Below, piece after piece: positions 45,564-47,759 of a stretch of 64,000 nt of DNA. How positions within the stretch are numbered: the stretch's first letter is position 1; each line of letters starts with the position of its first letter. The position numbers were made by a program, and so were the translations under genes. This stretch comes from Cyanomargarita calcarea GSE-NOS-MK-12-04C (GTDB taxonomy: Bacteria > Cyanobacteriota > Cyanobacteriia > Cyanobacteriales > Nostocaceae): contig JAHHGZ010000002.1 in the NCBI GenBank assembly GCA_019359595.1, positions 248,001 through 312,000 on the forward strand, written 5' to 3'. Below the pieces are notes generated by a model, which searched no databases, was not told the DNA's origin, and saw only the letters and a list, made by a program, of their open reading frames with translations.

Positions 45564-45629
45564 TCGCTGGCTTACTGGGCTTTCTACCACTATTTTTTTA
45601 TCTGCTATCTCAATATTATGGAGATGTGT

Positions 45630-46142
45630 ATGAACGGTAGTAGAAAGCTTTGCCCATACCCCACTCGCATTGATATACCTGTAGAAGTGCGAGCGGATAT
45701 GATTGACGTCCTCAACTGGACACTTGCAACGGCTGTAGATTTAAAGACTCAGGTCAAGCAGGCACACTGGAATCTTAAAGGTATAAACTTTTACCAGCCA
45801 TCTGAATTGTTTAATAATATCGCAGCAAAAATAGAACAACACATCGATTTGATTGCTCAACGAATCACAATCCTTGGAGGTAGAGCGATGGGAACCTCTA
45901 GGACTGCAGCAAGACATTCAACTTTGCCTGAATACCCCTTGGATATTACTGATGATAAAGAGCATATGGCTGCTCTTGCGGAGCGTCTGGCTATTTATGC
46001 TAAATACCTGCGGGAAAATATCGATCTTTGCTTCACATTGGGGGACGCAAATACAGCAAACCTCTACACAGAAATTTCTAGACGGATCGATAAGTATTTA
46101 TGGTTCTTAGAGTCACAGCTTGCAACTTTAGAACTGAAATAA
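45630..46142 (+). CDS. dps: Dps family ferritin-like protein
   Basis: 170 residues from ATG 45630 (MNGSRKLCPYPTRIDIP), which has GGAG 6 nt upstream; ATG 45618 is also possible. Dps forms 12-mers that oxidise Fe(II) with H2O2, store iron and protect DNA. The four-helix ferritin fold and the intersubunit ferroxidase residues are visible: QVKQAHWNLKG (His), KIEQHIDLIAQRITILGG (His, Asp) with the expected Glu region. A terminator hairpin follows. Cyanobacteria carry several Dps paralogues; this one's regulation is unknown. Confidence 0.93.
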   Translation: MNGSRKLCPYPTRIDIPVEVRADMIDVLNWTLATAVDLKTQVKQAHWNLKGINFYQPSELFNNIAAKIEQHIDLIAQRITILGGRAMGTSRTAARHSTLPEYPLDITDDKEHMAALAERLAIYAKYLRENIDLCFTLGDANTANLYTEISRRIDKYLWFLESQLATLELK

Positions 46143-46200
46143 GTCTTGAAAGACGTTCTAGCACTCCGCCACATTAATTTTGACCCTTTCGCTCTTGCCC

Positions 46201-46235
46201 AGATCCCCGACTTAGGAGTGCGAAGTCGGGGATCT
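46201..46235 (+). terminator. Hairpin after dps
   Basis: AGATCCCCGACTT (46201-46213) is the exact complement of AAGTCGGGGATCT (46223-46235), loop 9 nt. The inner 10 bp are identical to the hairpin after larB (30969-31000). Confidence 0.65.
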
Positions 46236-46263
46236 AGTAACCCATCAGAACTAATGACACGGG

Positions 46264-46425
46264 CTACGAGTACCTTGTCACACGAACTTTGATGGGTAAG
46301 AGATTGAACCGCGTTCGCCCTTGGCGTTGCCGAAGGCTAGACGCAAAGGACGCGAAGAAAGAGGCTAAGAAGAGAAATTCCAAGAAGTTTCACCCATCAA
46401 AGTTGATGTGACAGTCTACGAGTAC
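46264..46425. mobile_element. Candidate MITE with 10-bp target duplication (1)
   Basis: CTACGAGTAC occurs as a perfect direct repeat at 46264-46273 and 46416-46425. Between them lies 142 nt whose 24-nt ends (46274-46297 and 46392-46415) are inverted repeats matching at 20 positions, with a perfect inner core ACTTTGATGGGT/ACCCATCAAAGT. No coding capacity. The TIR plus direct repeat pattern is that of a non-autonomous transposon. Confidence 0.75.
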
Positions 46426-46523
46426 TCCACCACACTGAATATGAGGGGGAAGCTGTACGCCTTCCTTAAGGTAGTGCAACTAGGAGCGATTCCATAAATT
46501 TTTCATTTTGATTTCGCTTATCT

Positions 46524-46685
46524 ACATATAATCCAATACGGTTGGTGTTAGCGCAAAAAACCTGGTATCGCTGCTCCCGGTTGGGTTGAGGAACGAAACC
46601 CAACATTTGGGCGGGTTGTTGGGTTTAGCAAAGCCTCAACCCAACCTACGATTCTCCTTAACACCAAGCGTATTGACATATAATC
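46524..46685. mobile_element. Candidate MITE with 10-bp target duplication (2)
   Basis: ACATATAATC is a perfect direct repeat at 46524-46533 and 46676-46685. It encloses 142 nt with 17-nt terminal inverted repeats (46534-46550 and 46659-46675) matching at 16 positions. Inside are GGTTGGGTTGAG and CTCAACCCAACC, an inner palindrome. No coding capacity. Its sequence is unrelated to the element at 46264. Confidence 0.78.
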
Positions 46686-46850
46686 AATTGACAAATTCTT
46701 AACATTTGTTTAATAAAATTTCAACTCACTTACTAATTTAAGTATAAAATTGATAGTATCAGTTATATTTAGCTGATTTGAATTTACTAATTGAAAAAAG
46801 ATTTTAATTTATTGTCAGCAGCATTAAGGATATTTACGAAATATAAAAAT

Positions 46851-47759
46851 ATGTTAAAAAACTTGCAATTACAACATAAATTCACCATTTTCTTAGTCTT
46901 AATTCTTGCATTTGGTTTGAGTTGGAGTGGATTGGCATTATCTTCTTTACTGAGGCAAAATGCTAGACAGGAAATTACCTCAACAGCCCTGATGCTGATG
47001 GAAAGCATGAGTTCTGTTCGCGACTACACTAGCGCTCAAATTAATCCAGAATTGGCGGATAAATTAGATACTGAATTCTTACCGCAAACTGTACCAGGTT
47101 ACTCTGCACGGGAAGTCTTTGAAATTATGCGAAAAAAATCAGACTACCGTGATTTTTTCTATAAAGAAGCTACGATAAATCCTACTAATATGCGGGATAA
47201 ATCTGACAATTTTGAGACAAATATTATTGAAAATTTTAGAGATAAAAAAAAATTGAAAGAATTGAGCGGATTTCGTTCCATTCCTAGCGGTGATATTTTC
47301 TACATAGCTCGTCCGTTGGCAGTTTCTCAAGAAAGCTGCCTAAAGTGTCACAGTACACCAAATGTTGCACCTAAAAGCATGATTGAGCGTTATGGACCGG
47401 TTAATGGATTTGGATGGCAGATCAATGAGATTATTGGCGCTCAATTTATCTCAGTGCCAGCAAGTAAAGTCATTCAAAAAGCCAATAAGTCTTCTTTCTT
47501 GATTATTCTAATTGTATCTACTGTTTTTGGGGCAATTATACTTTTAGTTAATATGTTCTTAAATCGGGAAGTTGTTGCTCCTCTGAAACGCATAACTAAA
47601 ATTGCAGAGGAAATTAGTACGGGGCGTATGGACGTTGATTTTGATCGGTTATCTAATGATGAAATTGGCAATCTCGCCAAAGCTTTTCAACGGATGAAGT
47701 TTAGTTTAGATATGGCAATGAAAAGAATTAAACGCTCTCAGGGTAGTACAGGAAATTAA
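46851..47759 (+). CDS. DUF3365 heme-binding sensor with HAMP domain
   Basis: 302 residues from ATG 46851; a TTG at 46791 would add 20. Topology: one N-terminal transmembrane helix (FTIFLVLILAFGLSWSGLALS), a periplasmic DUF3365 domain (about 30-215) that contains a c-type heme motif CLKCH at residues 163-167, a second helix (FLIILIVSTVFGAIILLVNMFL) and a HAMP domain (PLKRITKIAEEISTGRMDVDF). The protein ends after HAMP with no kinase or cyclase domain, so its signal must go to another protein. The related Tll0287 domain binds c-type heme. The C-terminal stop is 2 nt before a composite repeat. Confidence 0.88.
   Translation: MLKNLQLQHKFTIFLVLILAFGLSWSGLALSSLLRQNARQEITSTALMLMESMSSVRDYTSAQINPELADKLDTEFLPQTVPGYSAREVFEIMRKKSDYRDFFYKEATINPTNMRDKSDNFETNIIENFRDKKKLKELSGFRSIPSGDIFYIARPLAVSQESCLKCHSTPNVAPKSMIERYGPVNGFGWQINEIIGAQFISVPASKVIQKANKSSFLIILIVSTVFGAIILLVNMFLNREVVAPLKRITKIAEEISTGRMDVDFDRLSNDEIGNLAKAFQRMKFSLDMAMKRIKRSQGSTGN

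Follow-up and report, generated by a model that had tools for sequence, protein, structure and literature searches.

The window, a stretch of 64,000 nucleotides from Cyanomargarita calcarea GSE-NOS-MK-12-04C, contains two elements of 142 nt each in the intergenic space between the open reading frames at 45618-46142 and 46791-47759. The second of these, on which we focus here, extends from 46534 to 46675 (forward strand) and encodes no open reading frame of 60 or more amino acids. A preliminary description of this DNA had reported a direct repeat on both sides of this unit and inverted repeats of 17 nt at its ends, and both statements proved correct. The 10-mer ACATATAATC at 46524-46533 is repeated exactly at 46676-46685 (neither copy is assigned to a strand), and a comparison of both ends shows that the left terminal inverted repeat CAATACGGTTGGTGTTA (46534-46550, forward strand), which also gave the pattern hits described below, agrees at 16 of 17 positions with the right one (46659-46675, reverse strand; reverse complement CAATACGCTTGGTGTTA, then AGG). 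The inner palindrome that had been noted in the unit is present as well, its length having been given one base too short: the arms GGTTGGGTTGAGG (46579-46591) and CCTCAACCCAACC (46634-46646), both written on the forward strand, are complementary at 13 of 13 positions. Folding predictions nest a second stem of 10 bp within this palindrome, formed by AAACCCAACA (46596-46605) and TGTTGGGTTT (46617-46626; both forward strand), and the single-stranded element folds far better than its shuffled counterparts (z of -6.0 as DNA and -5.6 as RNA).

The first element occupies positions 46274-46415, or 46264-46425 together with its flanking 10-mers. Since its right repeat ends at 46425, the distance of 98 nt previously given between the two elements is accurate (46426-46523). 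To gauge how often such arrangements occur by chance, we scanned the window for exact 10-bp direct repeats that are 60-600 nt apart and enclose inverted ends matching at 12 or more of 17 positions. Exactly two places were found, and these correspond to the two 142-nt elements, the one at 46524-46685 scoring 16/17 and the first element 13/17. One hundred windows generated with a first-order Markov model yielded a single place at 12/17 and none at 16/17.

The genome search for the ends and their flanking 10-mers proposed in the preliminary description revealed locus-specific duplications at further copies, with one exception. In the assembly of the organism (7.9 Mb in 82 contigs), the 17-nt end occurs 16 times free of mismatches, while the reversed pattern used as a control does not occur at all. 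Ten of these ends pair into five elements, located on contigs C24 (the window), C25, C27, C52 and C72, and six are single. The flanking duplications are exact in three of the five pairs, each with a 10-mer of its own: ACATATAATC on C24, CGATATATCT on C25 and CATTTTAATG on C72. In the C52 copy the two flanking 10-mers are out of step by one base owing to an indel in a run of A, and the C27 copy, the exception, is the only one of the five without a 10-bp duplication. The interiors of these copies vary. Part of the hairpin is deleted in the C25 copy, and in the C27 copy (L003, 1506-1647) some 11 nt of the interior, enclosed by the hairpin's short inverted repeats, have the opposite orientation to their counterpart in the window copy; such alterations would be expected of an unstable palindrome. 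Fragments or truncated copies reside on C28, C32, C46 and C55. On C38 the same kind of inner hairpin lies between different ends (CAATACTG... or CAATACTGTTCGG...), and this element is flanked on both sides by a 10-mer of its own, GGGTGTGGTG. We considered an independent spread of the inner palindrome and rejected it: all six exact copies of TAGGTTGGGTTGAGG in this genome fall on C24, C25, C28, C55 and C72, and elements or fragments of this kind of miniature inverted-repeat transposable element (MITE) were seen on all of these contigs.

For the analysis of the duplication length, we collected 153 distinct ends with sufficient flanking DNA from the exact-end loci of this genome, of its relatives and of the named genomes. 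An inverted partner motif was present within 2.5 kb for 81 of them, 72 being without a partner, and the paired ends collapsed to 70 distinct elements; a pass in which partner ends were chosen by the duplication itself was excluded from these counts. A 10-bp duplication with no more than one mismatch flanks 54 of the 70 elements (40 exactly), and 16 are without it. Duplications of 6-9 or 11-14 bp were found at none of the 70, and one of 5 bp, with a mismatch, was found at a single element, so that 10 bp stands as the sole duplication length of the family; at 10 bp, shuffled end pairings averaged 0.04. The duplicated elements measure 82-418 nt, with the addition of one of 1490 nt. Their target sites favor T, A, T and A at positions 4-7 with frequencies of 0.66-0.72 per position, a center whose symmetry is built in because both strands were pooled.

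Insertion of such an element can be traced at a relative of the window copy. The element at locus L070 (genome G004) is flanked by the two parts of a dispersed repeat that is about 180 nt long and, in most of its copies, bounded by GTGTACAC-like tips. Ten uninterrupted copies of this repeat (L292-L301, from G004 and G202), taken from many more matches listed, all lack the element and contain the target 10-mer once and in the same register; eight of them differ at no more than one position from the target 10-mer of L070. Among relatives, no empty site was found for the copy in the window itself, all matches lying within the downstream gene or close to it. The downstream 625 nt are matched by 149 of 217 genomes of the family, and the insertion point is left uncovered because no listed match from outside the organism begins before query position 126. 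As a separate observation, a palindrome, AGATCCCCGACTT, lies at 46201-46235 in the window, and the element at L069 in genome G006 sits in a palindrome of the same kind, which again hints at an empty site.

A source of transposase for these elements is indicated by insertion sequences (ISs) with matching or related ends. Plectonema radiosum NIES-515 harbors a 1490-bp IS (L199) flanked by the 10-bp duplication ACCTATAAAG. Its left end, CAATACGCTTGGTGTTAAGG, is identical to the right terminal repeat at 46659-46675, and the match continues through about 20 nt; its right end, CAATACGGTTCAGTTAAG, represents the CAGTTAAG variant, so that the left end alone is shared. The transposase gene of this IS is split into open reading frames of 330 and 100 amino acids in different frames, the second of which holds the last part of the protein. 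The 330-residue product scores 138 bits against an NCBIfam IS4 cut-off of 115 and matches the Pfam families Nterm_IS4 and DDE_Tnp_1. Of 167 loci scanned, L199 alone combines the end with a transposase gene. By searching with variant ends, we also found an 898-bp element on contig C29 of C. calcarea itself (L082; G000:C29:119300-121200). This IS4-type element is internally deleted; both of its ends read CAATACGGTTCAGTTAAGGCT, the 10-bp duplication AGATATAGCT flanks it, and its gene, which is broken, contains the Nterm_IS4 domain. Further ISs of the family possess 10-bp duplications (L103, 1486 bp; L106, 1513 bp; L108, 1541 bp; L123, 1501 bp; L125, 2194 bp), as does L114 (2190 bp) with one mismatch. 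The 398-residue transposase of L106 reaches 186.7 bits with model NF033592 (IS4 cut-off, 115 bits) and carries the residues Y-2-R-3-E-6-K at position 304, a spacing that we take to be that of the YREK signature of IS4. For members of the IS4 family, PMC2266710 describes DDE transposases with a YREK signature and duplications of about 10 bp, as opposed to about 5 bp for families that were split from IS4. The 10-bp duplications observed here agree with this description.

In the assembly of C. calcarea, the single match to a transposase gene of this IS4 type is the deleted C29 copy, and no intact gene was found. Contigs C35, C57 and C63 each begin inside an IS4-type element, 127 nt from its end (loci L083, L084 and L085), which suggests that copies were collapsed at assembly gaps. 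Since contigs start inside such ISs, intact copies may be hidden in these gaps. An interval of 1282 nt between two ends at L081 was also considered as an IS and was dismissed; it contains no transposase open reading frame, and one of the two ends forms a 214-nt element together with another end that lies closer.

Beyond the organism itself, the exact end is confined to members of its family among the 60 genomes searched. It is present in 9 of 60 genomes, C. calcarea included, all nine of which belong to its own family, and it was found in none of 24 genomes from other families of the same order. A scan of named genomes returned at least 116 stretches with the end. Seven of the 80 matches listed derive from non-cyanobacterial bacteria, and for none of these seven was a partner end found; the remaining matches listed include Nostoc, Calothrix, Fischerella, Tolypothrix and others, names which suggest that the family in question is that of the heterocystous cyanobacteria. 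Twelve stretches of viral contigs each contain one exact end and none has an exact partner end; we took these as chance matches. Partial likeness to the interior of the element was detected in 2 of 72,556 plasmid records. A search of the literature for these ends retrieved no description among the matches listed. In genome G006, the general end pattern was matched 349 times (131 forward and 218 reverse, some matches being doubled by the variable gap of the pattern), versus 58 times in the genome of C. calcarea.

The ends are combined with each other and with interiors in various ways. When typed with a loose pattern that allows two substitutions, the partner ends of the 54 duplicated elements are GGTGTTA-like in 16 cases, CAGTTA- or CGGTTA-like in 36 and neither in two. 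Their interiors fall into eight single-linkage groups of 23, 12, 9, 4, 3, 1, 1 and 1 members, the window element belonging to the group of 12; because the linkage can run through short repeats that are shared, dissimilar interiors may have been grouped together. Unlike hairpins are enclosed by the same ends, and the same hairpin also occurs between different ends. A transposase acting on these elements would presumably need the ends only. We tentatively raise the possibility, doubtful as it still appears, that IS4-type transposases of Nostocales accept any pairing of two rather different end types, which are offset by one base, and thereby serve to disperse palindromic repeats in general. Such a mechanism, if true, would account for the spread of many palindromic repeats of Nostocales.

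The same data bear on other ways of accounting for the unit. According to the preliminary description, the two elements of the window could be moved by a single transposase family, a view for which their proximity of 98 nt, their common length of 142 nt and the exact 10-mer repeats around each would speak. We regard this as highly improbable. The ends of the two elements differ, as had been stated at the outset, and show no likeness when compared. Equal length is not a family trait, given that the duplicated relatives of the second element span 82-1490 nt. Moreover, no locus-specific 10-bp duplication was found at the first element, copies of which are present elsewhere in the genome. The 10-mer that flanks it, CTACGAGTAC, closely resembles CTACTAGTAG, a palindrome present at the termini of further copies; among nine ends at other loci, seven are within three mismatches of CTACTAGTAG and two differ from it at five positions. 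Since this 10-mer recurs at other loci, it is probably part of the first element, and a tip that is palindromic gives the appearance of flanking direct repeats. A search covering the copies of the first element in its own genome found no IS with its ends.

The stability of the fold relative to shuffles and its intergenic position could also reflect a hairpin kept as a regulatory or RNA structure between the neighboring genes, for instance a terminator or a processing site, with mobility being incidental. This appears very unlikely to us: the interval 46130-46830 contains no terminator-like site, its promoter-like sites do not rise above shuffles, and no Rfam family exceeded its gathering score, the best hit being a plant miRNA model at chance level (20.4 versus 48 bits). 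In addition, the interior is altered in other copies, as the deletion on C25 and the inverted segment on C27 attest. Somewhat less improbable, albeit still unlikely, is a derivation of the element from an IS by internal deletion (a type I MITE) rather than from a pair of ends around foreign DNA. The deleted 898-bp IS4-type copy in the same genome and the match of the ends to an IS through about 20 nt are in keeping with such a history. By eye, however, the interior past these 20 nt is unlike that of the ISs at L199 and L082, and the same ends are used by at least five multi-member groups of interiors. This question concerns the origin of the element and not its mover, and a type I MITE would be a variant of the explanation that we favor.

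We therefore interpret 46534-46675 as a gene-less MITE moved by IS4-family transposases, with a probability of roughly 0.93. It is considered a non-autonomous passenger of the IS4 family because computation revealed its copies and their ends, the uniform 10-bp duplications, the empty sites of a relative and, at L199, an IS that combines the same end with an IS4 gene; these locus-specific duplications, empty sites and the shared IS end likewise bear out the initial reading of the unit as a MITE with a 10-bp target duplication. Since its ends match those of IS4-family members, an enzyme of that family very probably moved it. An IS4-family DDE transposase made elsewhere would bind both ends (CAATACGSTTGGTGTTA, with CAATACGGTTCAGTTAAGG and CAATACGGTTCGGWTAAGG as related variants) and presumably move the unit in trans through the chemical steps expected of such an enzyme. 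It would insert the unit into AT-rich sites with a TATA-like center, leaving a 10-bp duplication around a gene-less interior that is predicted to form a nested hairpin and varies between elements. These results connect a set of short cyanobacterial repeats, marked by a clean 10-bp signature, with a family of transposases. They also set the second element apart from its neighbor, in which the apparent duplication probably belongs to the repeat itself.

As an IS4-family MITE, the element is an ordinary cyanobacterial mobile repeat, a new member of a kind already known. With the IS4-family ISs that contain an Nterm_IS4 domain it shares terminal repeats, a duplication of about 10 bp and, in the case of one IS, its end; unlike these ISs, it lacks a transposase gene and has a tenth of their length. 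Nezha is likewise a cyanobacterial MITE with terminal repeats, and it differs in its 8-bp duplication and its ends from the element studied here, which duplicates 10 bp. The MITEs of Anabaena sp. 90 (PMC3542288) measure 77-541 bp and resemble our element in being short, gene-less, multicopy, hairpin-forming and mostly intergenic, with inverted ends. According to that report, no IS of their genome has ends evidently similar to theirs, whereas an IS4-type IS with a matching end was found for the element described here.
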